Source: Amycolatopsis suaedae (GTDB lineage Bacteria > Actinomycetota > Actinomycetes > Mycobacteriales > Pseudonocardiaceae). Taken from it: DNA of 64,000 nucleotides. Positions 3,928 to 41,267 of this stretch are shown here, piece after piece. Made by a program: the position numbers and the translations under genes. A model generated the notes under the pieces. The model did not search any database, had not been told where the DNA came from, and saw only the letters and a program-made list of their open reading frames with translations. Where the stretch lies: positions 186,001 to 250,000 of the forward strand of contig NZ_SFCC01000014.1 in assembly GCF_004214935.1 (NCBI RefSeq), read 5' to 3'. How positions within the stretch are numbered: position 1 is the first letter of the stretch; the number at the start of each line of letters is the position of its first letter.

Positions 3928-3969
3928 TCCTTCCACCATGTGCGGATCCGATCGACCCCTGGAGTGCAC

Positions 3970-5217
3970 GTGACCTACGACGTCGAGACCCTGCGGGCGC
4001 AGTTCCCTGCACTCGCAGCGGGAAACGCCCATTTCGACGCGCCGGGCGGGCCGCAGGTGCCCCGGCCAGTCATCGATGCGATCGCCGAAGCTCTCGCGAA
4101 CCCGACCGCCAACCGGGGCGAGAACACCGCGGGTGGGCGCAACGCTGAGGAGATCGTCGTACAGGCGAGGCAGGCGCTCGCCGACTTCCTTGGCGCATAT
4201 CCGGCCGGCGTGGTGTTCGGGCGCAACGCGACACATCTCGCGTACGAGTTCTCCCGAACACTCGCCAAGACATGGATGCCCGGCGACGAGGTGGTGGTGA
4301 CCCGCCTCGACCACGAGTCCAACATCAGGCCGTGGGTGCTGGCCGCGGAGCGCGCGGGCGCGGTCGTCCGGTGGGCCGACTTCGACCCGGCAACCGGTGA
4401 ACTGACCGTGGACCACATCCGCGCCGTACTATCGGACCGTACCAGGGTCGTCGCGGTGACGGCGGCGTCCAACCTGATCGGCACCCGGCCGCCGGTGCCG
4501 GAGATCAGCAAGCTCGCGCACGAGGCGGGTGCGCTGTGCTATGTGGACGCCGCCCACTACAGCGCGCACGCGAGCGTCGACTTCGACCGGTTGGGCGCGG
4601 ACTTCGTGGCGTGTTCGGCGTACAAGTTCCTCGGGCCGCATCTCGGGGTGCTGGCCGCGCGGCCGGGGCTGCTGCACTATCTGGGGCCCGACAAGCTGGT
4701 CGCGGCGACGAATGTGGTACCGGAACGCTTCGAGTTGGGCATCCTGCCGTATGAGGCGCTGGCCGGAGTTCGCGCCACGGTCGACTTCCTCGCCTCGCTG
4801 GGCCAGGGCGGCACCCGCAGGCAACGGCTGGTGTCCGCGATGGGCGCCGTCGCGGCACACGAGGACGCGCTGCGGAGGCGGATAGAGGAGGGGCTCGCCG
4901 GGCTGCCCGGGGTGACCGTGTGGTCGAGAGCGGCGGACCGGACGCCGACATTGCTGCTGACGATCGACGGGCGCGACCCCCTTGACGCGGCCAGGTTCCT
5001 GTCAGTCCGCGACGTCGACACGGAGGCTGGGTGCTTCTACGCCGTCGACGCCGCGGCCCGGCTGGGGCTGGACCGCCGCGGTGGCCTGCGGATCGGGCTA
5101 GCCCCTTACACCAACGACGACGACGTCGACCGCCTGCTGGAAGGCCTTGCCGCGTTCGTCGACAGCCCACTGGCGCAGACGCGGATGTTGATCTCGACGA
5201 GAGGAATTCCGTCATGA
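3970..5217 (+). CDS. Cysteine-desulfurase-like PLP enzyme (class V aminotransferase fold)
   Basis: The 415-residue protein fits the cysteine-desulfurase-like branch of class V aminotransferases. It shows the N-terminal FDAPGGPQVPRPV, a Thr/His-rich cofactor pocket (GRNATHLAYEF, RLDHESN), the Asp of VDAAHYSAH that holds the PLP ring nitrogen, and the Schiff-base Lys about residue 219 in SAYKFLGPH. Family members remove sulfur from cysteine or catalyse related beta/gamma eliminations. I do not see an obvious mobile Cys loop of the SufS/IscS type, so the reaction is open. GTG 3970 was chosen because GGAG at 3961 is well spaced from it; GTG 3964 is possible. The stop overlaps the thioesterase start (ATGA), placing it firmly in the cluster operon. 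Confidence 0.82.
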   Translation: MTYDVETLRAQFPALAAGNAHFDAPGGPQVPRPVIDAIAEALANPTANRGENTAGGRNAEEIVVQARQALADFLGAYPAGVVFGRNATHLAYEFSRTLAKTWMPGDEVVVTRLDHESNIRPWVLAAERAGAVVRWADFDPATGELTVDHIRAVLSDRTRVVAVTAASNLIGTRPPVPEISKLAHEAGALCYVDAAHYSAHASVDFDRLGADFVACSAYKFLGPHLGVLAARPGLLHYLGPDKLVAATNVVPERFELGILPYEALAGVRATVDFLASLGQGGTRRQRLVSAMGAVAAHEDALRRRIEEGLAGLPGVTVWSRAADRTPTLLLTIDGRDPLDAARFLSVRDVDTEAGCFYAVDAAARLGLDRRGGLRIGLAPYTNDDDVDRLLEGLAAFVDSPLAQTRMLISTRGIPS

Positions 5218-5978
5218 CGACGTCCACGCTGGACGAGATCTGGGTCCGGCAGTTCCACCAGGATTCCGGTGCGCGGGGGAATCTGGTGTGCTTCCCGCAC
5301 GCGGGCGGCTCCGCGAGCTACTTCACGCCGCTGTCGGACCTGCTGCGGTCGGAGCTGCGGGTGCTGTCGTTGCAGTACCCCGGGCGGCAGGACCGGTTGC
5401 ACCACCCGATGCTGACGACGATCCCCGACCTGGCAGAGGGCGCGTACACCGCGCTGGAGCCGATCCTGGACGAGCCGGTCGCGTTCTTCGGGCACAGCAT
5501 GGGGGCGATGGTGGCGTTCGAGGTCGCGACGAGAATGGCGGCCAGGCGTGGCACGGCCCCGGTGGCGCTGTTCGTGTCCGGCCGGCGGGCGCCGTCACGC
5601 AGTCGTGCCGGGGAGGTCGTGCACCAGCGCGACGACGCGGGGGTCGTCGCGGAGCTGAAGGCGTTGAGCGGTACCGACAACCGGTTGCTCGACGATCCCG
5701 ACGTGGTACGGATGATCCTTCCCGCTCTGCGCGGGGACTACACCGCGGTGGAGACGTACCGGCATGAGCCGGGTCCGCCGCTCACCTGCCCGGTCGTCGG
5801 ACTGCTCGGTGAGGACGACGACAAGGCCGACCAGGACGAGGTTCGGGCGTGGGAGACGCACACCACGGCGACGTTCCGGCTGCACATGTTCCCCGGTGGG
5901 CATTTCTACCTCGATGACACGGCGAACCGGCGCGCGGTGGTGGAGATCATCACCCGCCAGCTCGCCGGAACCGCCTGA
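5214..5978 (+). CDS. Type II thioesterase (editing)
   Basis: A 254-residue alpha/beta hydrolase of the stand-alone thioesterase family that clears stalled or mis-primed acyl chains from PKS/NRPS carriers. The oxyanion region LVCFPHAGGSA, the nucleophile Ser at residue 95 in GHSMGA, an acidic GEDDD loop and the general-base His in FPGGHFYL are all present and in normal order. The ATG overlaps the preceding stop and has GAGAGGA just upstream. It is the last gene of the plus-strand operon that starts left of the window. It is the only thioesterase seen here; none of the assembly-line proteins ends in a TE domain. Confidence 0.93.
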   Translation: MTTSTLDEIWVRQFHQDSGARGNLVCFPHAGGSASYFTPLSDLLRSELRVLSLQYPGRQDRLHHPMLTTIPDLAEGAYTALEPILDEPVAFFGHSMGAMVAFEVATRMAARRGTAPVALFVSGRRAPSRSRAGEVVHQRDDAGVVAELKALSGTDNRLLDDPDVVRMILPALRGDYTAVETYRHEPGPPLTCPVVGLLGEDDDKADQDEVRAWETHTTATFRLHMFPGGHFYLDDTANRRAVVEIITRQLAGTA

Positions 5979-5981
5979 CTC

Positions 5982-6013
5982 GTGAAGGCCACCTTCACCA
6001 CGTGATACGTCAG
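5982..6013 (+). repeat. Intergenic repeat, copy 1 (GTGAAGGCCACCTTCAC element)
   Basis: Seventeen bases form a 7-bp stem with a CCA loop (GTGAAGG-CCA-CCTTCAC), followed by ACGTGATACGTCAG. The same block occurs at 12177 and, with an added complementary right arm, at 23185. It lies directly after a stop codon between convergent genes, so it may act as a terminator. The bases from 6014 to 6146 contain two near-copies of GGAGCGCGTAACTCGCGTTC but no gene that I can see. Confidence 0.7.
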
Positions 6014-6146: not shown

Positions 6147-6616
6147 TCAGCCACCCCACTCGTCCAGTTCCACCGCGGGCGAGCGCAGGCCGTTGAGGGT
6201 CTCGCGGTCGAAGTCCGGACGGTCCGGGACTCCGGTGACCCGGCCCTCGATGTCATAGGCCCAGTTGTGCCAGCGGCAAGTGAAACGCCTGGCGCCGGTG
6301 CCGCTCTCGGGCACGATCCGGGCGCCCCGGTGCTGGCAGACATTGTGGAAACCGGCCAGGCCGCCGTCCTGGCGCCTTGTTATGACGATGTTCTCGCCGT
6401 TGCCCGACCACGCGTGGAAGTCGCCGGGGTTCGCGATCTGGCTCGACCGGCAGATGATCTGCCAGCTGCGGTTGAGCACGCGGATACGTTCCAGCTCATA
6501 CCGCTGCGGGTCCCGGTAGACGTCCGCGTCCAGTGTGGATGGGCCGATCGGCGGCACGCTCGGTATGCCAGGCCCGAAGCGGGCGGGCAGATCACCACGG
6601 TTGGCTGGAAAACCAC
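6147..6616 (-). pseudogene. Truncated copy of the Rieske oxygenase gene
   Basis: This is the first third of the oxygenase encoded at 12442-13620, with about nine in ten residues the same by eye. It keeps the [2Fe-2S] ligands (CQH and CRWH) but ends in a stop codon immediately after the shared DEWGG/EEWGG position, so the catalytic iron domain is gone. A one-base loss near the N-terminus (within the codons after VVFQPT, about 6597) also breaks the frame, leaving only an internal start near 6557. It sits back to back with the PKS gene, exactly as the intact copy does with the hybrid gene, so it is a relic of a segmental duplication. Confidence 0.85.
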
Positions 6617-6688
6617 TGTCGACCTCCGTCGAGTTTCGTTCACTCTCTGCTTACGCGCACCCGATGATCTGCCCGCGGTCCGGTGGGC

Positions 6689-6752
6689 GTCCATGTGGAA
6701 CCGGCGGCAGAGGTGAAGGTGGACCGGGTTTCGCCGCCGTTTCCACATGGAC
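6689..6752. promoter_or_regulatory. Inverted repeat in the divergent oxygenase-relic/PKS promoter (copy A)
   Basis: The left arm GTCCATGTGGAACCGGCGGC (6689-6708) is complementary to 6733-6752 with one mismatch and a 24-base gap. The same dyad, same gap class and same position recur at 13689-13762 in the duplicated promoter. Conservation of both arms while the surrounding bases drift suggests an operator or a paired binding site for a cluster regulator. Confidence 0.6.
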
Positions 6753-6825
6753 GGGGCCGGGGCAGAACACCGACGATTCGCGGGGCGGGGAACTGTCGTG
6801 TGTGAGTGAAGGACGGGGATGCCAG

Positions 6826-9800
6826 GTGGGCGCTGAGACCGAGGAACGGCTCCGCGGCTATCTCAAGCGGGTGACGGCCGAGCTGCTCGCGGCGCGGGAA
6901 CAGCTCGCGGACGGTGACGAGCCGATCGCCATCGTCGGCATGTCGTGCCGGTTTCCGGGCGACGTGCGGAATCCGGATGACCTGTGGCGGCTGGTGTCCC
7001 GGGGCGGTAGCGGCATCTCCGGGCTCCCCACCGACCGAGGGTGGCGGATCGACGACGGCGCGGAGGGACAGGAGAACGGCCGTCCGCTGCCACGACAAGG
7101 CGGGTTCCTCACCGACGCCACCTCCTTCGACGCCGACTTCTTCGAGATCTCCCCGCGCGAGGCTGTCGCGATGGATCCACAGCACCGGTTGCTGCTGGAG
7201 ATCGTGTGGGAGGCGCTCGAACATGCCTCGATAGCGCCGGATTCGGTGCGTGGCAGCGCGACGGGCACCTATATCGGGATGATGTCCGGCGACTACGCGA
7301 TGCCACTGACCGCCGCCGGACAGTCAGACAACTTCGGCGGGTTCCTGGTCAGCGGCAACACGAACGCGATCGCGTCCGGCCGGATCGCCTACACGCTCGG
7401 CCTGACCGGGCCCGCGGTCACCATCGACACGGCCTGTTCCTCCGGGCTGGTCGCCGTGCACGACGCGTGTCAGGCTCTGCGTCGTGGCGACGTGTCGCTG
7501 GCGCTGGCCGGCGGGGTCGCGGTGATGTCGACGCCCACACTGCTCGTGGAGTTCAACCGGCAGGGCGGCCTCGCGGCGGACGGCCGGTGCAAGCCGTTCG
7601 CCGCCGCGGCGGACGGGACCGCGTTCGCCGACGGCGCGGGTATGCTTGTACTGCAACGGCTTTCGGACGCCCTGCGGGACGGGCGCGACGTGCTCGCGGT
7701 GATCCGGGGCAGCGCGGTGAACCAGGACGGGACGTCGAACGGGCTGCTCGCGCCGAACGGTGCCGCGCAACGTCAGGTGATCGCACGGGCACTCGACGCG
7801 GCCGGACTGACCGCGGACCAGGTCGATGCCGTGGAGGCACACGGAACCGGGACGCCGCTGGGCGATCCGATCGAGGCGCAGGCGTTGATCGCCACCTACG
7901 GGCAGCGACGGGCGCGGCCGTTGTACCTCGGGTCGGTCAAGTCGAACATCGGCCACACCCAGGCCGCGGCCGGCATCGCCGGGGTGATCAAGATGGTGCT
8001 CGCGATGCGGCACGGTGTGCTGCCGCCGAGTATCGGGGTCGACGAGCCGACGCCGCACGTGGACTGGTCCGCGGGGGAAGTCCGGCTGGTGACCGGGACG
8101 ACCCCGTGGCCGGCGACGGACGCACCCCGCCGGGCCGGTGTGTCGTCGTTCAGCCTGAGTGGCACCAATGCGCACGCGGTGCTCGAGGAAGCGCCCACGC
8201 CGGACGAGCCCGATGCGCCCGGGACGGCGCTGCCCGCGGTGCCCTGGGTGCTGTCCGCGAAGTCCGCGACCGCACTGCGCGCGCAGGCCCGCCGGCTGTT
8301 GTCCATCGACGAGTCCGCCGCGGACGTCGGGTTGTCCCTCGCAACCGGCCGGGCCGCGCTGCGGCATCGTGCGGTGGTTGTGGGCTCGGACCAGGCCGAG
8401 CTGCACGCCGGGCTCACGGCCCTGGTCGAGAGTTCCTCCGCGGTGAACCTCGTTGAGGGCACTGTGCCCGCCTCGGACGGTCCCGGACCGGTGTTCGTGT
8501 TTCCGGGTCAGGGGCAGCAGTGGTGTGGGATGGCGGTGTCGTTGTTGGGGTCGTCGCCGGTGTTTGCGGCGAAGGTCGCTGAGTGTGTGGCGGCTTTTGA
8601 GCCGTTTGTGGGTTTTTCGTTGTGGGATGTGTTGTGGGGTCGTGCGGGTGCGCGGGGTTTGGATTGTGATGAGGTTGTTCAGCCGGTTTTGTTTACGGTG
8701 ATGGTGTCGTTGGCGGGGTTGTGGCGGTCGTGGGGTGTGGTGCCGTCTGCTGTGGTGGGGCATTCGCAGGGGGAGATCGCGGCGGCGTGTGTGGCGGGTG
8801 TGTTGTCGGTGGAGGATGCTGCTCGTTTGGTGGCGGTGCGTGCGGGGTTGTTGGGGTCGTTGGCTGGACGTGGCGGGATGGTGTCGCTCGCGTGCTCGGC
8901 GGCGGATGCGGAGAGTGTGCTGGAGCGGTGGCGTGGGCGGTTGGGGGTTGCGGCGGGGAATGGGCCGGTGTCGACCTCGGTGTCGGGTGATGTGGGCGCG
9001 GTGGAGGAGTTGCTGGCGTGGTGTGAGGTGGAGGGTGTTCGGGCGCGGCGGATTCCGATCGAGTACGCCTCGCATTCGGTGCAGGTGGATGTGATCGAAG
9101 AGGATCTGGTGGCGGGGTTGGGTTGGTTGTCGCCGTCGGTTGGTGAGGTGTCGTTCTACTCGACTGTGACCGGTGGGCTGATGGACGGGGCTGAGCTAGG
9201 GGCGCGGTATTGGTTTGAGAATGTGCGGCGGCCGGTGGATTTTGTGGGTGCGGTGTCGTCGTTGGTGGCTGATGGCTATCGGTCCTTCGTGGAATGCGGC
9301 GCGCACCCCGTGCTGTCCATGGGACTGCAGGGGCTGATCGACGAGGCCGGGGTGGATGCCGCCGTGGTCGGCACCCTTCGCCGTGGCGACGGCACCCTCA
9401 CCCGCGCGCTCACCTCGCTAGCCGAGGCCTACGTCCAGGGCCTTCCCGCCGACTGGCCTGCGGTGTTCGCGGGCACCGGCGCGCGGCGGGTACCGCTGCC
9501 GACCTATCCCTTCCAGCGCAACAGATTCTGGATCGACCAGCCCGCCCCCAGGACGGCCTCGGCCGGACACCCACTGCTCGGTGTCGCCATGGCCCTGGCC
9601 AACGGCGACGGTCACGTGCTGGCCGGACGGATCTCCCGCGCCGACCACCCATGGCTCGCCGACCACGCCATCGCGGACACCGTCCTCCTGCCCGGCACGG
9701 TGTGGGTGGAGCTCGCCGCACACATCGGCGGGGTCGAGGAGCTGACGCTGCGGGCGCCGCTGGTGCTCCAGGACGACGGCGTCCACGCCCTCCAGGTGAT

Positions 9801-12096
9801 CGTGGGTGCGCCGGACGAGACCGGGCGCCGGGCCGTGACCATGCACTCACGGCCCGAGAACACCGACGAACCATGGACAGTCCACGCGGAAGGCATCCTG
9901 ACGGCGGCACCGGCGGACACCTGGCGAGAAGGACCCTGGCCACCACCGGACGCCACGCCTGTCGACATCGCCGACGCCTACACCGACCTGGCGGACGCGG
10001 GCTACAGCTACGGGCCCGCCTTTCACGGGTTGCGGGCGGTGTGGCGGGACGGCGACGTGCTCTACGCGAACGTGACGCTCCCGGAGACCGTCTCGCCCAG
10101 CGGCTACGGCGTGCACCCGGCATTGTTCGACGCCGTGTTGCACCCGATGCTGGTGGCCGCGGGCGGCGGGCGGGACGAGATGCGCCTGCCGTTCGCCTGG
10201 CGTGGCGTCACCGTTCACACGAAGGGTGCCACGGAACTACGCGTCCGGCTGGCCCGGGACGGTGACGGCGTCGCGATCCGGGCGACCGACACCAGCGGTA
10301 CGCCGGTGCTGTCCGTCGAATCGCTCGACACCCGGCCGGTCGCGGTGGCGGGACTCCGCGTCGCGCGCCGTGCCGGCCTGTTCCGGCTTGACTGGCCGGT
10401 GCTGACGGGCGCAGGCGCGGCACCCCCGGCGGACCACGTGTTCGCCCGACTGTCGACGTCGGACGACACCGGAACGGGTCCGACCGCCGTCCGTGCTCTG
10501 CTCGGCGAACTGCTCCCCCTCTTGCAGGAGTGGCTCGCCGCTGAGCACGGGGCCAGCGCGCGGCTGGTGGTCGTGACCACGAACGCGGTCGCCGTGGACG
10601 GGGCTACCCCCAACCCGGTCGCGGCGACCGCGTTCGGCCTTGTGCGGTCCGCGCAGGCCGAACACCCCGGCCAGTTCGTGCTGGTGGACACGGATGGAAC
10701 CCTCGAATCCGACGACCGGTTGCACGCCGCGGTGGAAACCGGCGAACCGCAACTCGTGCTGCGGAAGGGCACGATCCACGCCGCGCGGCTCGTCCGCGAG
10801 CCGTGGCCGTCGGCGGCGTCCGTGCCACCGATAGACGGCACGGTGCTGATCACCGGTGGCCTCGGCGCACTCGGCGGTCATGTGGCCCGGCACCTGGTGG
10901 CGAGCCACGGCGTCCACCGGTTGCTCCTCGTCGGCCGCAGAGGTGTGGACACCCCCGGGGCCACCGAACTCCTCGCCGAGCTCACCGCCGCCGGCGCGGA
11001 CGTCACCGTGGCGCGCTGCGACGTGTCCGACCGGGCCGCGCTCGCGGCCGTGCTCGACGCGATCCCGGACGAACACCCGCTGACGGCGGTCATGCACACC
11101 GCCGGTGTCCTCGCGGACGGTGTGGTCACGGCGCTCACGCCGGAACGGCTCGACGACGTGTTGCGTGCCAAGGTCGACGCCGCCTGGCACCTGCACGAGC
11201 TGACCGACGGCCTCGCGGAGTTCGTGCTGTTCTCGTCGGTCGCGGGCACGTTGGGCGCCGCGGGGCAGGGCAACTACGCGGCCGCGAATGCCTTTCTGGA
11301 CGCACTCGCCCAGCAACGGCGCGACGCCGGCCTACCGGGACTGTCCATCGCGTGGGGGCAGTGGGCTCAGGACAGCGGCATGACCGCCGCGCTCGGCGAC
11401 GTCGACCGCGGCAGGCTTGCGGGGGCCGGACTGACACCGATGCCCGCCCCGGACGCGCTGACGCTGTTCGACGCCGCTCGCGCGGCCGGTCCGGCGAACC
11501 TGGTCGCCGCGCACGTCGACCTGGCCGCGGTGCGGGCCACGATCGGGACGGACCACGCTCCCCACGTGCTGCGGACCCTCGTCCCCGCACGCGACAGGGA
11601 AACGCCGTCCTGGCGACATGAACTGACCGGGCTGTCGCCGGCGGACCAGCTCGACCGGCTGACGGAGCTGGTCCGGTCCCGGGTGGCCGTCGTGCTGGGA
11701 CACCAGGGCACCACGATCGACGTGGACCGGCCGTTCCGTGAGCTGGGCTTCGACTCGCTCACCGCCGTGGACCTGCGCAACCGGCTGGCGTCGGCGACCG
11801 GTCTGCGGCTGCCCGCGACGCTGGTCTTCGACTACCCGACGCCCGCCGCACTCGCGGCGCGGCTGCACACCGAGCTGGCCGCCGTCGCGGAAGAACCTGA
11901 CCCGGTGCACGCCGCCGTCACGCGGCTCCGCACCGAGATGTCCAACTGGGACGACACGGCACGCGAGCAACTGGTGGACCGGCTGAAGGACCTGGTGCGT
12001 GAGTGGACGCCCGCCGCCACACCGGCTGCCCAGCTGGCGTCGGCGAGCCCGGACGAAGTGCTCGCGCTGCTGGACGCGCAGCTGGAACGGCACTGA
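6826..12096 (+). CDS. Type I PKS module: docking-KS-AT-DH-KR-ACP-docking
   Basis: A 1756-residue single extension module. The first 30 residues are a coiled docking helix ([16 protein letters not shown]). KS starts about residue 31, with active Cys 204 in TACSSG (the usual third Ser is Gly) and the HGTGT and NIGHT histidines. AT runs about 556-860, with Ser 647 in GHSQGE and YASH at 747, which predicts methylmalonyl-CoA. DH runs about 916-1200, with His 947 in [10 protein letters not shown] and DAVLH near 1102. KR starts near 1340 (GGLGALG, VLADG, NYAAAN). ACP Ser is about 1644, then a docking tail. No ER, so the unit should leave as an alpha-methyl enoyl. GTG 6826 was chosen because it aligns with the ATG of the hybrid gene; GTG 6802 is an alternative. 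Confidence 0.93.
8491..9290 (+). other. AT-domain segment with foreign codon usage
   Basis: Within the PKS gene the AT core switches to codons ending in G or T. In the 100 codons from 8521 to 8820 I count only two that end in C, whereas in 9541-9600 twelve of twenty do. The change begins near the VFVFPGQG motif and ends near FVECG, matching AT-domain boundaries. The reading frame stays intact. It looks like a domain replacement or gene conversion from another PKS. Confidence 0.8.
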
Positions 12097-12441: not shown

Positions 12442-13620
12442 TCAGTGCAGGGTGGCGGAATCCCGCGCATGCTTCGGTTCGAGTCCTAGTCCGTTGCCGC
12501 CGGCGAGCATGTCGTCGCAGACGCGGTGGAAGTGCGTGATGAGACACTCGCGTTCGTTGAAGATGTTCTGCCGGTAGGCGGAGGATCCGGCGACCGCCGC
12601 GACGTTCGTCCACTCGTCGACGTCCTCCTGAACGATCGCCTTGACCACTTCCCAGTGCATCTCGGCGGAGTCGTTGTACTCCTCGTCGTCGGTGTCGTAC
12701 TGCAGTTCCCAAGCCTCGAACCGTGTTTTGTCGACGGCGAGCGGGACCGCGCGGAACAACTGGGTGTGCACTCGGTGGCAGTTGAACACCGCGGTGGGGA
12801 ACAGGTTGTAGTTGCAGATCGCCAGTGCGTTGTGGTCGAGCGTGCTACGCAGGTCGTCAAGTGCGCCCTGGAGCGGCACGACCATCATGCCGTTGCGACC
12901 GAAGACATCCATTGTGGACTGACGGGCATCCTTGACGTCGGCTGCCGGAATTCTGTGCAGTGCTTGAGCGTGGTAGTACTCGCTGAAGGCGTCGACGCAG
13001 ACCTTCCAGTTGACATCGACTTCCCACTCGACCTTGTCGGCGAGCCGCATCTCCTCCATACGGTAGGCGGACAGCTCGCCCGCGATCTCCGAGCCGAGCC
13101 AGTCGAGTAGCGGCCCGGCCACCCCGGGGCCGGCCAGTACCGCCCACACCCAGCCACCCCACTCTTCGAGATCAATCGTGGGGGAACTGAGCCCTTTGAG
13201 GGCCTCGCGGTCGAAGTCCGGCCGGTCGGGTACGCCGGTCACCCGGCCGTGGATGTCGTACGCCCAGTTGTGCCAGCGGCAGGTGAACCGGCGCGCGCCG
13301 GTCCCGCTCTCCGGCACGATCCGCGTGCCTCGGTGCTGGCAGACGTTGTGGAAACCGGCCAGGCCACCGTCCGGTCGCCTGGTGATGACGACGTTCTCAC
13401 CATTGCCTGACCACACATGGAAATCGCCCGGGTTCGCGATCTGGCTGGACCGGCAGATGATTTGCCAACTGTTGTTGAGCACGCTCGTACGCTCCAGCTC
13501 GTACCGCTGCGGGTCCCGGTAGACGTCCGCATCCAGCGTGGACGGCCCGATCGGCGGCACGTTCGGGATGCCGGGGCCGAAGCGGGCGGGCAGCTCACCA
13601 CGGGTTGGTTGGAAAACCAC
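12442..13620 (-). CDS. Rieske non-heme iron oxygenase, alpha subunit
   Basis: A 392-residue enzyme of the aromatic-ring-hydroxylating dioxygenase type. The N-terminal Rieske domain has CQHRG and CRWHNW ligating the [2Fe-2S] cluster. The C-terminal domain has the mononuclear-iron motif around [13 protein letters not shown] and a later acidic region. It would hydroxylate, desaturate or otherwise oxidise the cluster product using O2. Electrons must come from a ferredoxin and reductase, neither of which is encoded in the window. The GTG at 13620 is 209 bases from, and divergent to, the hybrid synthetase start, with a dyad between them. The substrate cannot be inferred. A truncated duplicate lies at 6147-6616. 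Confidence 0.92.
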
Positions 13621-13688
13621 AGTTGACCTCCGTCGGCTTTCGTTCGCGATTCGACGCGCCCCCGATGATCAGCCTCTCGCTGGCGGCA

Positions 13689-13762
13689 GTCCATGTGAAA
13701 ACGGCGGCGATTCGTCGGGTGCCGAGCACTCGGCCGGCTTTCGCCGCCAGTTCCGCATGGAC
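13689..13762. promoter_or_regulatory. Inverted repeat in the divergent oxygenase/hybrid-synthetase promoter (copy B)
   Basis: The left arm GTCCATGTGAAAACGGCGGC (13689-13708) pairs at 16 of 20 positions with 13743-13762. The dyad occupies the same place as copy A at 6689-6752 relative to both flanking genes. It may be an operator shared by the oxygenase and the assembly-line genes; the regulator is unknown. Confidence 0.6.
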
Positions 13763-13829
13763 CTGGCTGAGTGCCGCCGCTGACGATGTGTGCGGGATTG
13801 GTGTGGTGCGAGCGGAGGACGGATGCCAG

Positions 13830-22688
<8,859 letters not shown>

Positions 22689-22715: not shown

Positions 22716-23153
22716 ATGGGTGTGGTTACCGGCTCCATCGTCGTCAACGCGCGGGCAGCAACGGTCCTCGACATCCTGCTCAACCTGGAGGCGTATCCGA
22801 CCTGGCAGGGTGGGATCGACCGGATCGACGTCAAGGAGGTCGACGACCAGGGGAGGCCGACCCTGACCCAGTGGCACGTGCGGGCGATGGGACATCGCGC
22901 GACGCACGCCGTGCGGTACGAGTACCCGGAGCGGGAAGCGTTCGAGTACCACCTCGTCGAGAGCGAGGTGTTGACGAAGTACGACTTCAGTTGTGCGGTC
23001 ACCACTAACGACGACGGCACGAGCGAGGTCACGCTCAGCCAGGAACTCGGCATCAAGTGGAAGATGCCGGAGCGGATTCTCGACAAGCACGCGAAGAAGG
23101 GGATCAACTCAATGCTGACCGCGCTCAAGGAGAAGGTGGACCAGAGGTCGTGA
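22716..23153 (+). CDS. SRPBCC-family (polyketide cyclase/START-like) protein
   Basis: A 145-residue single-domain protein with the helix-grip pattern: an N-terminal strand ending in a helix (ATVLDILLNLEAYPTW), a central run of beta-strands, and a long C-terminal helix (a Lys-rich stretch after KWKMP). Such proteins bind hydrophobic ligands and in biosynthetic clusters act as cyclases, aromatases or dehydratases. The ATG has a strong AGGAGG Shine-Dalgarno and lies 27 bases after the hybrid synthetase, so it belongs to that operon. With no thioesterase domain in the assembly line, a role in cyclising or releasing the chain is possible but is only inference. Confidence 0.8.
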   Translation: MGVVTGSIVVNARAATVLDILLNLEAYPTWQGGIDRIDVKEVDDQGRPTLTQWHVRAMGHRATHAVRYEYPEREAFEYHLVESEVLTKYDFSCAVTTNDDGTSEVTLSQELGIKWKMPERILDKHAKKGINSMLTALKEKVDQRS

Positions 23154-23184: not shown

Positions 23185-23227
23185 CGAAGGCCACCTTGAT
23201 TACGTGAGACGTCAGCAAGGTGGCCTT
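23185..23227 (+). terminator. Hairpin of the GTGAAGGCCACCTTCAC repeat family, copy 3
   Basis: GAAGGCCACCTTG (23185-23197) pairs perfectly over 13 bp with 23215-23227 across a 17-base loop carrying ACGTGAGACGTCAG, the block also seen after copy 1. It lies between the SRPBCC gene and the next synthetase. It may end or attenuate transcription, giving the downstream synthetase its own promoter in 23228-23325. Confidence 0.65.
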
Positions 23228-23340
23228 CACGATCTTCCGCCGGGCGTACGGTGCCGCGTTCTGCTGGTGTTCTCGCATGGAAAGCGGTGGGTTGGTTCGA
23301 GATCATGTTTACCGGCCCCACAACGCGGAGGTAGCCAACC

Positions 23341-26300
23341 TTGTTTCCTCTTGTGACACCCGACCCGGACGCTCTCACCGAACCGTTTCCGCTCAACGAC
23401 ACCCAACAGGTGCAATGGCTGGGCAGGCACGGGGCTTTCGAAGGCGGCAACTTCGACGGTGACGCCATCGTGCACGTCTACTGGGAGATCGACGCGCGGG
23501 ACATCGACCTGGTCCGGTTGGAGGAAAGCTGGCAACAGGTGATGCGGCGCCACGGCATGCTGCGGGCGGTGCTGCTGCCCGATGGCCGCCAGCAGGTTCT
23601 GCCCGAGGTCGGGCACTACCACATCGAGGTCCTCGACCTGCGCGAGCTGTCACCGGACCAGCTCGTCTGCCGGCTCGGCGAGGTGCGTGCGGAGTTGACG
23701 AGCCATACCCGGGGCGCGGACGTGTGGCCGTTGTTCGACATCAAGGCAGCGCTGATGCCGGACGGTGGAACCCGGGTGTGTCTCGGTTTCGACCTGCTCA
23801 TGGTGGACATCGGCAGTGTCCGGTTGATCTCGCGGGACTGGCGGCGACTGTACGCGGGGGAGGAGCTGCCGCCCCTCGAGCTGTCGTACCGCGACTACGT
23901 CCTGGCCGTGGCGAGGGCCAAGGACACACCGGAGTACGCCAAGGCGCGTGACTACTGGCGGGAGCGGGTCCGGCACCTGCCCGCCAGGCCGGAACTGCCA
24001 CTGGCCGTGACCACGGCCGAGGAAGGGCGCGAGTCCGTCTCGTTCGAGCACTGGCTGGACGACGCAGGGTGGCACCGGATCACCGAACGGGCAGACGCGC
24101 TCGGGCTACCCCCTGCCACGGTGCTGCTGGCCGCATACGCCGTCGCGCTGGGGCGGTGGAGCAGGACCGCCGAATTCACCATCAACGCGACCGTTGTCAA
24201 CCGGCTGCCCATGCACCCCGCGATCGATGACCTGGTGGGTGAGTTCATCTCCTTCGACCTGTTGTCCGTGGATCTGGCCGGTGCCAAGGACATCATCGAC
24301 GTGGCGCGAAGTCTGCGTGAGCAGGGTGACGCGGCGGCGGAACACCGGATGTTCAGCGGGGCCGAGGTGCTCCGCGAGCTCGCGGAGGTGCAGGGTGGCA
24401 TCGGCCGGGTGGCGTTCCCCGTGGTGTTCACCAGCACGATCCTGCGGGGCACCGAACCCGGCGACGTCACGTGGTTCGGCTGGCTCGGAGACATCGTCGA
24501 CGTGCTCGCGCAGACACCGCAGGTGTGGCTCGACTTCGCGTTGCTGGAAACCCCCGTGGGGGCACACCTTGCTTGGCACGGCGCCCGAAAGCGGTTTCCG
24601 GACGGTGTGCTGGACGCCATGTTCGACGCCTTCCGCGCCCTGGTCGACGATCTGGCCGCCGAGGAGGACCGGTGGTCCGCGCCGTTGACCGCGGGCGTCG
24701 CGACCGCGCCGGAGGAGGACGAGGCTCCCGAGGGACTCCTGTGCGACGGCGTGATGGCGTGCGCCCGCCGGACGCCCGAGCGTGTGGCCGTGGTGTCCGG
24801 TGACGGCGAGGAACTGACCTTCGGCGCCCTGGGTTCCTGGGCCACGGGTGTGGCGGGGGAACTGCGTGCACTGGGCGTGCGGCCGGGCGAGCTGGTGGCC
24901 GTGGCCGTCCCGAAGTCGGGGGCGCAAATCGCGGCGGTGCTGGGGGTGCACCTGGCGGGCGCAGGATACCTGCCGGTGGACCTCGACCTGCCTGCCCGGC
25001 GGCGTGCGGAACTGATCGAGGCCGGTGGTTGCGACGTCGTGCTGGTGCGGTGCGCCGACGACACGGTGACCTGGCCGGACGGGGTCCGTACGGTGGTGGT
25101 CGACGACCGCCGCGACCACGTCGGCGAACTGGCGGAATCACCGGCGGCGCCGTCCGACGTGGCCTACGTGATCTTCACGTCCGGTTCGACCGGCGTACCG
25201 AAGGGCGTCGCGGTGTCGCACCGGGCCGCGCTGAACACGTGCGTGGACGTGTGCGCGCGGTTCGCCGTGACAGCCGACGACGTCGTGCTCGGCCTGTCGT
25301 CGTTGAGTTTCGACCTGAGCGTGTTCGACATCTTCGGGATCCTCGGCGCGGGCGGGCGGCTCGTGCTGCCACGCCCGGACGCGCGCCGCGAACCCCGGCA
25401 TTGGCTGGAGCTGGCCCGCGACCACGGGGTGACGTTGTGGAACAGCGTGCCCGCGCTGGCCGAACTCGCGCTGTCACAGGCGGTCGCGAGCGGCGAGACG
25501 ACCGCGTTGTCCGGTGTCCGGCTGGCGTTGTGGTCGGGCGACTGGATTCCGGTCGACCTGCCGGACCGGTGGCGCGAGGTCGCGCGTTCCTGCCAGGTGG
25601 TGTCCCTCGGCGGCGCGACAGAGGCGGCGGTGTGGTCGGTCTGCTACGAGGTCGGCCGGGTGGACGAGTCGTGGGACTCGATCCCGTACGGCCGGGCGCT
25701 GGGCAACCAGCGGTGTCACGTGTTGAACGACCGGCTGGCGGATTGTCCCGTGTGGACGGTGGGGGAGCTGTACATCGGCGGGGCCGGGCTGGCCGACGGG
25801 TACTGGCGTGACCCGGACCGGACCGGCGAGCGGTTCGTCGTTCATCCGGTCTCCGGGGAACGCCTCTACCGGACCGGAGATCTGGGCCGGTGGCTGCCGG
25901 ATGGGAACATCGAGTTCCTCGGTCGTGAGGACCTCCAGGTGAAGGTCGGCGGCTATCGCATCGAGCTCGGCGAGATCGAGGCCGCGCTCATCCGGCACGA
26001 GCGGGTCGCGTCGGCGGTCGTCGTGGCGGCGGGCGAGCGGCAGCACCGGCGGTTGGCGGCATTCCTGCTGCCCGAAGCCCCGGTGACCGACGAGGACGCC
26101 CTCGTGGCGGAGTGCACGGAGTCGCTGCGGGCGTCCCTGCCCGGCTACATGGTGCCCGGTGTGATCACGGTGGTCGACCGGATGCCGTTGACCAGCAACG
26201 GAAAAGTCGACAGGGGCCGACTCGCCGCACTCGTCGGCGGGGTGGACGGCGACGTGGCGGCCATACCCGGTCGCGGTGACGTGGTCGCGGTACTGGCACG

Positions 26301-27528
26301 CATCTTCCGCGACGTGCTCGGCGTCGAGGCGGTCGGCCCCGGTGACAGCCTGTTCGCGCTGGGCGGCGATTCCATTGCCGGGATCCAGATCGTCATCAGG
26401 GCGATCGCCGAGGGTCTGGACGTGACGCCGTCCGATCTCTTCGCGAACTACACGCTCGATGAGCTGGCCATGACCGTGACGGTTCGTGGAGCCGGGGCCG
26501 CCCGCGCGACGGCGGAGTGGCCGCTGAGCCAGTACCAGACCACGGTCCTGGAACGAGCCGGCGGTCCCGAGCACGTCGGTGTCCACCGGATCGTCCTGCC
26601 GGTGTCCGATCCCGAGGCCGCGGCACGGGCCGCCGGCCGGTTGCTCGACGAGGAACCGGCGCCACGGCTGCGCCTGGCGGCCGAACCGGACGGCTGGGGG
26701 CAACGGATCGTCACCCCCGCCACCGAGGACGCGGCCGGTGTCCCGGTCGTCGACCTGACCACCCTCCCGCGGGCACGCAGGGCCGTCGCACTGGCGGAGA
26801 TGGTGGACGAGCTGGCCGGCGAGCTGGACCTGGTGCATGGCCCGGCCGGCAGGGCGTCCGTGTTCACCCTCGGCGAGGACGACCATCGGGTCGCCGTCGT
26901 GCTGAGCGTGCTCGTCGCCGACGCGGCCTCGTTGCCGGTACTCGTCGGCGCACTCGGCGGGAATGACCAGGTCGTCCACCATGCGAACGCCGCCGGGACG
27001 GTGCTGCGACTGGACGCCGACCGCACCGACCTGCTGCTCAGGACATGCGCACGGCCTGAATGGCCCGCGCCGGACGAGCTCGCGGTGGCGGCCGTCGCCC
27101 TCGCGCTGGGACGGGTCGAGGCGCCGGGCCCGGTCGTGCTGGACGTCGAGCGCGACCGGCGGCGGCAGGGCACGGTCGACGTCGACGGCCAGGTGGGCCC
27201 GTTCGCGGCCATCGTCCCGGTTTCGGTGGACGTGGGCCCCGGCATGTCGGTGACCCGGATCGGTGAGGCGTGCCGTGCCGCCACCCGACCCGCGCGGGGT
27301 GACCGGACGGCGAGGGTGCTGGTGCGGCACGCCGGCGACCTCGGTGCGGCGCTCGGCGACGACACCGTTCGCGGGCTGGCCGGAGACCTGCCGTACCCGG
27401 TAGCCGTCACATCGCTGATCACCGGCGGGCAGCTGGTCCTCGTCGTCCACCAGGACGCACCGGACGACGAGCTGGTGAGCGCGCTGGACCAGGCCGTGCA
27501 CGAGTTGTGCGAGCTGGCCGTCCGGTGA
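23341..27528 (+). CDS. NRPS: Cy-A(Cys-like)-PCP plus degenerate C-like tail
   Basis: A 1395-residue synthetase. Residues 1-450 are a heterocyclisation domain: the condensation motif is replaced by DLLMVD (about 151-156), the DxxxxD signature. The adenylation domain (about 475-985) has FTSGSTGVPKG near 612. Its pocket residues read D-L-F-N-L-S-L-V-W-K, close to the cysteine code DLYNLSLIWK, so a thiazoline from cysteine is likely. PCP Ser is about 1011 (LGGDSIAG). The last 340 residues resemble a condensation domain by position and length, but the active-site motif has decayed (SVLVADA). Translation starts at TTG 23341, nine bases after GGAGG; no better start exists. No oxidase or TE domain is present. 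Confidence 0.9.
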   Translation: MFPLVTPDPDALTEPFPLNDTQQVQWLGRHGAFEGGNFDGDAIVHVYWEIDARDIDLVRLEESWQQVMRRHGMLRAVLLPDGRQQVLPEVGHYHIEVLDLRELSPDQLVCRLGEVRAELTSHTRGADVWPLFDIKAALMPDGGTRVCLGFDLLMVDIGSVRLISRDWRRLYAGEELPPLELSYRDYVLAVARAKDTPEYAKARDYWRERVRHLPARPELPLAVTTAEEGRESVSFEHWLDDAGWHRITERADALGLPPATVLLAAYAVALGRWSRTAEFTINATVVNRLPMHPAIDDLVGEFISFDLLSVDLAGAKDIIDVARSLREQGDAAAEHRMFSGAEVLRELAEVQGGIGRVAFPVVFTSTILRGTEPGDVTWFGWLGDIVDVLAQTPQVWLDFALLETPVGAHLAWHGARKRFPDGVLDAMFDAFRALVDDLAAEEDRWSAPLTAGVATAPEEDEAPEGLLCDGVMACARRTPERVAVVSGDGEELTFGALGSWATGVAGELRALGVRPGELVAVAVPKSGAQIAAVLGVHLAGAGYLPVDLDLPARRRAELIEAGGCDVVLVRCADDTVTWPDGVRTVVVDDRRDHVGELAESPAAPSDVAYVIFTSGSTGVPKGVAVSHRAALNTCVDVCARFAVTADDVVLGLSSLSFDLSVFDIFGILGAGGRLVLPRPDARREPRHWLELARDHGVTLWNSVPALAELALSQAVASGETTALSGVRLALWSGDWIPVDLPDRWREVARSCQVVSLGGATEAAVWSVCYEVGRVDESWDSIPYGRALGNQRCHVLNDRLADCPVWTVGELYIGGAGLADGYWRDPDRTGERFVVHPVSGERLYRTGDLGRWLPDGNIEFLGREDLQVKVGGYRIELGEIEAALIRHERVASAVVVAAGERQHRRLAAFLLPEAPVTDEDALVAECTESLRASLPGYMVPGVITVVDRMPLTSNGKVDRGRLAALVGGVDGDVAAIPGRGDVVAVLARIFRDVLGVEAVGPGDSLFALGGDSIAGIQIVIRAIAEGLDVTPSDLFANYTLDELAMTVTVRGAGAARATAEWPLSQYQTTVLERAGGPEHVGVHRIVLPVSDPEAAARAAGRLLDEEPAPRLRLAAEPDGWGQRIVTPATEDAAGVPVVDLTTLPRARRAVALAEMVDELAGELDLVHGPAGRASVFTLGEDDHRVAVVLSVLVADAASLPVLVGALGGNDQVVHHANAAGTVLRLDADRTDLLLRTCARPEWPAPDELAVAAVALALGRVEAPGPVVLDVERDRRRQGTVDVDGQVGPFAAIVPVSVDVGPGMSVTRIGEACRAATRPARGDRTARVLVRHAGDLGAALGDDTVRGLAGDLPYPVAVTSLITGGQLVLVVHQDAPDDELVSALDQAVHELCELAVR

Positions 27529-28676
27529 CGCCACCACTGCCGGTGACGCGGCTACCGGTCGCTGACGAGACCTGGCGGGCCTCGGTGCGCGCGTTCGCAC
27601 GCGACGCCGTCGCACCACGCGTACGTGCCATGGACGAGGCGGCGACGCTGGACGGGGCCCTGCTGCGCGAACTGTTCGACGCCGGGCTGATGGGCGTGGA
27701 GGTCCCGGAGTCCTACGGCGGCACCGGTGGCGACCTGTTCCGGGTCATGCTCGTCATCGAGGAACTCGCCACGGTGGATCCCGCGGTCGCCGTGCTGGTG
27801 GATGTCCAGAACGCGCTCGTGGTCAGTGCGGTGCTGCGGCACGGGGACGGGGACACGCGGCGCCGCCTGCTGCCCCGGCTGGCGACCGGAACGGTGGGCG
27901 CGTACGCGATCTCGGAGGCGGACGCGGGCAGTGACGCGTTCGCGATGACCACCACCGCGCATCAGGACGGCGCCGGTTTCGTACTCAGTGGCGCGAAGCG
28001 CTGGACGACGAACGCCGCCGAAGCCGGGCTGTTCCTGGTATTCGCCAGAACGGCCGGCGCGGGCATGACCGCGTGCCTTGTCGATCGGGACGCCGCAGGT
28101 GTGCGGGTCGGCGAGCCGGTGTCGAAACTGGGCATCCGGGCGACCTCCACGTGCGACGTGACCTTCGACGACGTCCGGGTCCGGAAGCAGGACGTGCTGG
28201 GACGGCCCGGCGGTGGCGAGGTCATCGCGGTGGAGACACTGAACATCGGCAGGCTCGGTATCGCGGCGCAGCTCGTCGGCCTCGCGGAAGGAGCGCTGGG
28301 TGCCGCCGTCGCCCACGCACGTGACCGCCGTCAGTTCGACCGGCCGATCCTGGAGTTCCAGGGCGTGGCCTTCCCCCTGGCGGACCGGTCGGCGGAACTG
28401 GCGGCGGCACGCACGTACCTGTACGACGCGACCAGACTGTTCCAGCACGGCGGCGACGCGGCCGAACGCGTAAGGGCGAGCGCCGTAGCGAAACACCTCG
28501 CCGCGAACGTCGCCGAACGTGCGGCGGCACAGGCGGTCGAAATCTTCGGTGGAGCGGGCGTCCTGCCGGAGAACGGTGCGGAGAAGCGTTACCGTGATGC
28601 GAAGATCGGCAAGATCTACGAGGGCACGACGAACATGCAGCTCCGTGCGATCGCCGGTTTGCTCGCCAGGGAGTAG
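27525..28676 (+). CDS. Acyl-CoA dehydrogenase
   Basis: A 383-residue flavoprotein with the full acyl-CoA dehydrogenase pattern: FAD-binding block AISEADAGSDAFAM, the WTTNA segment, and the C-terminal EIFGGAGVLPEN and IYEGTTNMQ with the catalytic Glu. The GTG overlaps the synthetase stop (GTGA), so the two are coupled. Enzymes of this family in NRPS clusters can desaturate carrier-bound aminoacyl or acyl groups. Here it could oxidise a thiazoline or introduce an alkene, but neither is shown by sequence. It is the last gene of the biosynthetic operon; a regulator runs towards it 30 bases further on. Confidence 0.9.
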   Translation: MTPPLPVTRLPVADETWRASVRAFARDAVAPRVRAMDEAATLDGALLRELFDAGLMGVEVPESYGGTGGDLFRVMLVIEELATVDPAVAVLVDVQNALVVSAVLRHGDGDTRRRLLPRLATGTVGAYAISEADAGSDAFAMTTTAHQDGAGFVLSGAKRWTTNAAEAGLFLVFARTAGAGMTACLVDRDAAGVRVGEPVSKLGIRATSTCDVTFDDVRVRKQDVLGRPGGGEVIAVETLNIGRLGIAAQLVGLAEGALGAAVAHARDRRQFDRPILEFQGVAFPLADRSAELAAARTYLYDATRLFQHGGDAAERVRASAVAKHLAANVAERAAAQAVEIFGGAGVLPENGAEKRYRDAKIGKIYEGTTNMQLRAIAGLLARE

Positions 28677-39221: not shown

Positions 39222-39980
39222 CACTTCCCGCGCGTACGCCCAATGCGGTGTGCTGAAGACTCGATGGTGACGGACGACGAGGTGCGGTCCATGCGAGTGT
39301 TGCTGGTGGAGGACGACGATGGTGTGGTGGCGGCGCTGGTGGATGCGTTGACCGCGCGTGGCCACCACACCCATCGGGTAGCACGCGGTGCCGACGCGCT
39401 CACCGCCCGCGCGGGCGCCGACCTGGTTCTGCTCGATCTGGGCCTGCCGGACCTCGACGGCCTGGAGGTGCTACGCATGTTGCGCCGGGTGGCGCGGACG
39501 CCGGTACTGGTGCTGACCGCCTGCGGTGACGAGCGCTCGGTCGTGCGGGCTCTGCGGTTGGGTGCCGACGATTACGTCGTCGAGCCCGTCCGGCTGGCTC
39601 AACTGATGGCCCGGATGGATGCGATCATCCGGCGGGTGACTCCCATGCAGAGTCAGGACGGGAGGTGGTCCGGGTGGCCGATCTGACAATCGACCTCGCG
39701 GCACGGCGAGTCCAGGCGCACGATACCGACATCGCGCTGACCCCGAAGGAGTTCGACCTGCTGGCGATCCTGGCCCGCCGGGTGGGCGTCGCGGTGAGCC
39801 GGCAGCAGTTGATGGACGAGATCTGGGGGACGCCTACCTTGCGGTGGAGCAATGATCAGAACCTGTGGATGGTCCTCGGCGGGGAGAGGTGAGGGGCCGT
39901 ACCTTCCCGAGGAAGATCTGAAAGCCGAAAGAGTTCTGATCAGGGCTGGCGTTGGCGCGCCGGTTCGGGAGGGTACGCCC

Positions 39981-41267
39981 ATGCTCAAGGTAGTTCATGA
40001 CGAGTCCGCAACCAACGACAGCCCAGGTGGCTCGTCGGCGTCGTTGATCGACGAGATCGTCCGTGAAGGTGCCCGGCGGATGCTCGCTGAGGCGCTGCGG
40101 GCCGAGGTGGACGCCTACATCGCCGCGTTCGCTGGCGAGCGCGACGAGCATGGCCACCGGCTGGTGGTGCGTAACGGCTCGCATCAGCCGCGGGAGGTGC
40201 TCACCAGCGCCGGTGCGGTCCAGGTAACCGTGCCGCGGGTTAACGACAAGCGGATCGACCCTGATACGGCCGAGCGGATGAGGTTCTCCTCGGCGATCCT
40301 GCCGCCGTGGGCGCGCAAGACGCCGAAGGTGACCGAGGTGCTGCCGCTGTTATATCTGCACGGCCTGTCCTCGGGCGACTTCGTGCCCGCTCTGGGCCAG
40401 TTCCTCGGCTCGACCAAGGGCCTGTCGCCGGCGGTGATCACCAGGCTCACCGAGACGTGGAAGGCCGAGCAGCGCGCCTTCGCCGAGCGTGACTTGTCCG
40501 AGGTGGACTACGTGTACCTGTGGGCCGACGGGATCCACGTCAACATTCGCCTGGAGGAGCACAAGCTGTGCCTGCTGGTGCTGATCGGAGTGCGTGCCGA
40601 CGGCCGCAAGGAACTCGTCGCGCTGACCGATGGCTACCGCGAATCCGCCGAGTCGTGGGCCGACCTGCTGCGTGACTGTCGCCGGCACGGCATGCGCGCC
40701 CCGGTCCTAGCCGTCGGGGACGGCGCGCTCGGGTTCTGGGGCGGCCTGCGCGAGGTGTTCCCCGAAACGCGGGAACAGCGCTGCTGGTTCCACAAGTCGG
40801 CGAACGTCCTTGCCGCGCTGCCGAAGTCCGCGCGTCCCAGCGCGAAGAAGGCACTCGCCGAGATCTGGGGCGCGGAAGACAAGCGGCACGCCCAGGACGC
40901 GGTGCAGGCGTTCGCGGCCGCCTACGGCGCCAAGTTCCCCAAGGCCGTCGCCAAAATCACCGACGACGTCGACGAGCTGCTCGCGTTCTACGACTACCCC
41001 GCGGAGCACTGGGTCCATCTCCGCACCACCAACCCCATCGAATCTACTTTCGCCACCGTTCGGCATCGGACAAAGGTGACGAAAGGACCGGGGTCGCGGG
41101 CGGCTGGGCTGGCCATGGCGTTCAAGCTCATCGAGGCCGCCCAGTCACGCTGGCGCGCGGTGAACGCACCCCACCTCGTCGCCCTCGTCCGCGCGGGCGC
41201 ACGCTTTGAGAACGGCCAACTTGTCGAGCGCCCCGACGAATCGGCAGACCATGACCAAGCCGCGTGA
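39981..41267 (+). CDS. IS256-family transposase
   Basis: A 428-residue Mutator/IS256-type DDE transposase. It has the N-terminal GARRMLAEALRAEVDAYIAA block, the first catalytic Asp in YVYLWADGIHVN, the second in VLAVGDGALGFW followed by the CWFHK zinc-like motif, and the catalytic Glu in TTNPIESTFATVRHRT. ATG 39981 has GGGAGGG upstream and matches the usual start. The gene is intact and full length. Confidence 0.93.
   Translation: MLKVVHDESATNDSPGGSSASLIDEIVREGARRMLAEALRAEVDAYIAAFAGERDEHGHRLVVRNGSHQPREVLTSAGAVQVTVPRVNDKRIDPDTAERMRFSSAILPPWARKTPKVTEVLPLLYLHGLSSGDFVPALGQFLGSTKGLSPAVITRLTETWKAEQRAFAERDLSEVDYVYLWADGIHVNIRLEEHKLCLLVLIGVRADGRKELVALTDGYRESAESWADLLRDCRRHGMRAPVLAVGDGALGFWGGLREVFPETREQRCWFHKSANVLAALPKSARPSAKKALAEIWGAEDKRHAQDAVQAFAAAYGAKFPKAVAKITDDVDELLAFYDYPAEHWVHLRTTNPIESTFATVRHRTKVTKGPGSRAAGLAMAFKLIEAAQSRWRAVNAPHLVALVRAGARFENGQLVERPDESADHDQAA

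Follow-up and report, generated by a model that had tools for sequence, protein, structure and literature searches.

The Cy-A-PCP protein and its neighbors

The window (the whole 64,000-nucleotide stretch of Amycolatopsis suaedae DNA that was analyzed, C5:186001-250000 in genome coordinates) carries a gene for a 1,395-residue NRPS protein beside a large antibiotic-type assembly line. The protein consists of Cy, A and PCP domains followed by a condensation-like tail, which we refer to as Ct. The next gene encodes a flavoprotein resembling acyl-CoA dehydrogenases. Both frames are intact, and the base composition of the pair is of the coding type. Further upstream on the same strand are a hairpin, a stand-alone SRPBCC protein and a synthetase with both polyketide and peptide domains. 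Judging from a visual comparison with known motifs, we take the A domain of this synthetase to have a Ser-type code, and its MT is presumably an N-methyltransferase. A Rieske-type oxygenase gene lies on the minus strand between PKS genes (12442-13620) and is also present in two other genomes (G228 and G774). Downstream of the cluster there is a mutator-family transposase at 39852-41267.

Table. Features of the locus, in window coordinates.
Feature	Position	Strand	Remarks
Stand-alone type II thioesterase (TE)	5214..5978	+	PF00975, 189.7 bits; GHSMG
Preceding synthetase, KS-AT-ACP-C-A(Ser-type code)-MT-PCP-C*	13605..22688	+	First codon of the ORF may not be the true start
Terminal C* of preceding synthetase	21318..22685	+	Full length; F(S/T)LxxQDGWS replaces HHxxxDG
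Stand-alone SRPBCC (Polyketide_cyc2) protein	22716..23153	+
Hairpin, 20-nt arms, possible terminator	23186..23228	+	Between SRPBCC gene and freestanding synthetase
Freestanding NRPS, Cy-A(Cys)-PCP-Ct	23341..27528	+	TTG start; GGAGG Shine-Dalgarno nine bases ahead, 23327-23331
Cy domain	23341..24690	+	DxxxxDxxS intact (DLLMVDIGS); CaeA2-type clade
A domain	24721..26265	+	Code DLFNLSLVW, Cys-type code of CaeA2-type family
PCP	26266..26487	+	LGGDSI motif; active Ser present
Ct domain, predicted flavoprotein docking	26488..27525	+	C/E-like fold without catalytic His
CaeB1-type acyl-CoA-dehydrogenase-like flavoprotein	27525..28676	+	GTG start overlaps synthetase TGA stop; KIYEGT

Relatives of the module

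Searches with the tail alone came back empty: phmmer against the PDB gave nothing significant, and a scan of genomes found no relative. We therefore turned to the Cy domain; an alignment of Cy domains, run against the named genome collection, yielded 76 loci. At 27 of them a closely matching Cy has a KS some 3 kb upstream, and among these 27 a Ct match follows Cy-A-PCP wherever the module is complete on its contig. Several KS-bearing relatives are encoded as a single frame of about 2,400-2,600 aa. The relatives include Actinoalloteichus caeruleus DSM 43889, Amycolatopsis azurea (a dipyrimicin producer) and Lentzea aerocolonigenes. The A. caeruleus DSM 43889 protein is 2,484 aa long, which is the reported length of CaeA2, and it contains the published CaeA2 PCP peptide SLGGDSIMGIQFVSR. 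KS, Cy-A, Ct-like and CaeB1-like matches also occur together in a non-actinobacterium, Desulfoluna butyratoxydans (L132).

A Cy tree of 99 rows placed the window Cy within the CaeA2-type group (29 rows, the window plus 28 others; support 99), with Micromonospora halophytica as its sister (support 98). The window branch is longer than that of its sister (0.70 vs 0.24), and root-to-tip lengths fall inside the family range or slightly exceed it. The A-domain code is identical in two relatives and close to the codes of all members. The module thus has the parts of a CaeA2-type module: a Cy with DxxxxDxxS inside the pyridine-forming clade, an A code that is Cys-type by family likeness together with a PCP that has its active Ser, a shortened terminal C-like domain without the catalytic His, and a CaeB1-type trans flavoprotein encoded alongside with its catalytic Glu present.

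The C-terminal tail

The earlier note had described a C-like tail with a lost active site on this protein and had proposed structural modeling of it; the tail and the lost motif both proved real. About 336 residues follow the PCP, and SVLVADA occupies the position of HHxxxDG. Pfam Condensation does not match this region. AlphaFold2, given an alignment of 23 tails, nevertheless predicted a full two-lobed C fold (pLDDT 88.6, pTM 0.88), and the best PDB matches of the model were NRPS E, Cy and C domains, covering the whole length. Structure by itself does not settle the subtype of the modeled tail, because Foldseek ranks E domains first and VIA-align a Cy domain. The E-type model TIGR01720 matched the tails of three relatives, below its cut-off, and did not match the window tail. 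The HHxxxDG motif of an active epimerization or condensation domain is missing.

The HH is absent from the Ct of 22 of 22 relatives (all tails that could be read). The apparent erosion is therefore ancestral, and decay was rejected as the reason why the His is absent. The window Ct has 37% identity to its nearest relative. At 346 aa it is shorter than all others compared (350-461), lacking an internal stretch and a terminal DFPL linker that the relatives have. In those relatives a CaeA3-type protein comes after the linker, and the contig of the window encodes none. We infer that the loss of the linker and the loss of the CaeA3-type protein are connected.

The published Ct of CaeA2 is a C-like domain about a third shorter, with its catalytic His missing. 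It binds CaeB1 with a Kd of about 0.5 μM by ITC, and the reaction is abolished when it is deleted (PMC8149447). From this likeness, the window tail is probably a CaeA2/ColA2/KnmA2-type Ct domain that recruits a flavoprotein in trans, and not a decayed release domain. Points against this reading are the shortness of the tail, its missing stretch and linker, its modest identity to the nearest relative, the absence of KS-AT-ACP and of a CaeA3-type Leu module, and the longer Cy branch.

The flavoprotein gene

Because the CaeA2 Ct binds CaeB1 and a CaeB1 homolog is encoded here with an overlap, the tail points to recruitment rather than release. The flavoprotein has 69% identity to its M. halophytica homolog, where the stop/start overlap with the synthetase gene is also found, and 58% to its A. 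caeruleus homolog. By alignment, the catalytic Glu is present in KIYEGT (the published residues are E372 and S168), and WTTNA in the window protein aligns with WTSNA in that of A. caeruleus. The protein has evolved no faster than its relatives. On sequence grounds, the predicted partner of the tail is this downstream gene and not the SRPBCC gene.

Proposed reactions of the pair

The homology, the intact catalytic motifs and the pairing of the two genes are evident at this locus; by analogy with the studied systems, recruitment, dehydrogenation and ring formation could proceed as follows. The A domain would load L-Cys onto the PCP. The Ct would serve, by homology, as a non-catalytic docking platform that brings in the flavoprotein encoded by the overlapping gene, which would then α,β-dehydrogenate the cysteinyl thioester. 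The Cy would link an upstream acyl group with the dehydrocysteinyl unit and close the heterocycle, which is of the pyridine type in studied relatives. The usual fused KS-AT-ACP is absent, and the nearest candidate for the acyl donor would be the seryl-PCP of the preceding synthetase. One candidate for product release is the type II TE.

It is possible, although not probable, that the chemistry alone differs, with the tail still acting as the recruiter. In that case the Cy would turn Cys on the seryl chain into an ordinary thiazoline, which the flavoprotein would oxidize to a thiazole. Such a route would fit the Cys-type code, the intact Cy motif and a flavoprotein family that acts α,β to acyl thioesters (PMC8149447). 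With the preceding synthetase as donor, the upstream group would also be aminoacyl and not β-ketoacyl. Against this route stands the Cy tree, which puts the window Cy among the pyridine-forming domains and apart from the thiazoline-type ones.

The freestanding state

The module is a known kind of domain set in a new arrangement: it is freestanding, its usual polyketide partner having been lost. In each of the 27 relatives with sequence upstream, a KS neighbors the module. Here no KS-AT-ACP is fused upstream of the Cy, and a CaeA2-type KS was not found in the genome (best match 47%). The other end of a bipyridine or karnamicin assembly line is also missing, with no C-A-PCP (Leu) protein downstream; there are just three Condensation matches on the contig, and none is a CaeA3-type Leu module. 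The first residues of the protein align with the ACP-Cy linker of relatives, and they include no docking domain.

Adjacency and shared strand are what suggest a tie between the module and the preceding synthetase. Three things argue against such a tie: the hairpin, the lack of a docking domain, and the four sampled genomes with a homologous synthetase (G034, G228, G096 and G774), where no copy of the Cy-A-PCP-Ct protein was found near it. Exact GAAGGCCACCTT occurs at 5984, 12179, 23186 and 23217 (four sites vs 0.2 expected). Three of the four sites are in gaps after cluster genes, and two of the four make the hairpin.

Several features favor a reading in which the module and flavoprotein no longer work and are what is left of a karnamicin- or caerulomycin-type cluster that was acquired or trimmed: KS-AT-ACP and CaeA3 are missing, the gene begins inside the ACP-Cy linker and has no docking domain, a hairpin lies between it and the SRPBCC gene, and no module was found beside the homologous synthetase in four genomes. 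On that reading the tail could still be a Ct by descent. We consider it doubtful, since the frames, the Shine-Dalgarno sequence and the catalytic motifs are intact, the flavoprotein gene is coupled, the base composition is coding-type, and the flavoprotein rate is no higher than in relatives.

For a working pair, one specific scenario is that the module separated from its polyketide half and came to serve at the end of a macrolide-type PKS-NRPS; there, dehydrocysteine would be C-C-joined to a seryl thioester to give a heterocycle from two amino acids. We regard this as unlikely; if true, it would be a ring logic not described for the CaeA2-type family.

The preceding synthetase and chain release

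We searched the seven assembly-line proteins (C5:149650-213528) for release domains. These are the upstream PKS proteins at C5:149650-187364, where the earlier note had suggested looking for a terminal TE, the PKS at 6535-12096, and the two NRPS-containing proteins. None has a TE or reductase domain, and the upstream PKS proteins are no exception. The earlier statement that the window has no TE or reductase therefore holds for assembly-line domains but overlooked the stand-alone type II TE, which is complete and is the one match inside the cluster in a PF00975 search of the genome. The TE gene is coupled to a gene for a cysteine-desulfurase-like PLP enzyme (3940-5217; TIGR01976 over cut-off), and G774 has a 67% identical copy of this enzyme, likewise accompanied by a TE, close to its homologous synthetase. 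No product of the PKS-NRPS core was identified in the literature searched.

The two C-terminal domains that had been grouped as eroded are not of one kind. C* is full length and strongly conserved, with 54-60% identity in four genomes (G034, G228, G096 and G774). An SRPBCC gene follows the homologous synthetase in three of these four, all of which are without the Cy-A-PCP protein; in the fourth, neither an SRPBCC nor a matching MT was found. The SRPBCC was rejected as a marker of C* because its homologs in G330 and G073 have no C* nearby.

A joint release or cyclization system made up of the tail, C* and the SRPBCC is very improbable. In its favor, the assembly line lacks a TE domain and the SRPBCC sits between the two proteins. 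Against it, the role published for the Ct family is a recruiting one, three genomes without the module have SRPBCC together with C*, and one has C* without SRPBCC. A possible unusual main-chain release via C*, perhaps with the SRPBCC, is a separate matter from the tail. Ct recruitment, which the earlier note had joined with release, can now be treated apart from the question of how a TE-less line that ends in the conserved C* frees its chain.

Comparison with known systems

The closest counterparts of the pair are CaeA2/ColA2 with CaeB1/ColB1 (caerulomycin and collismycin; PMC8149447). They share the domain order, the Cys-type code, the Cy motif, the shortened His-less Ct and the homologous flavoprotein gene. 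In contrast to CaeA2/ColA2, the window module is not fused to KS-AT-ACP and has no CaeA3-type Leu module, its Ct is shorter and without the terminal linker, and the cluster context is different. KnmA2/KnmD (karnamicin; PMC9838390) belong to the same module and flavoprotein families, and the A code of the window equals that of the Lentzea aerocolonigenes relative. The differences from KnmA2 are again the missing fused KS-AT-ACP and CaeA3-type Leu module, the shorter, linkerless Ct and the other context. A natural freestanding Cy-A-PCP-Ct protein with its flavoprotein would be a useful system for studying substrate uptake in trans and C-C bond formation.

The CaeA2 Ct has been likened to the X domain of glycopeptide synthetases, an inactive C-family domain that serves as a recruitment platform (PMC8149447). 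The X domain sits after the final PCP, ahead of a TE, and recruits P450s, whereas no TE domain comes after the window tail. The window tail illustrates how a domain can seem eroded when viewed alone and yet be a conserved platform for docking.
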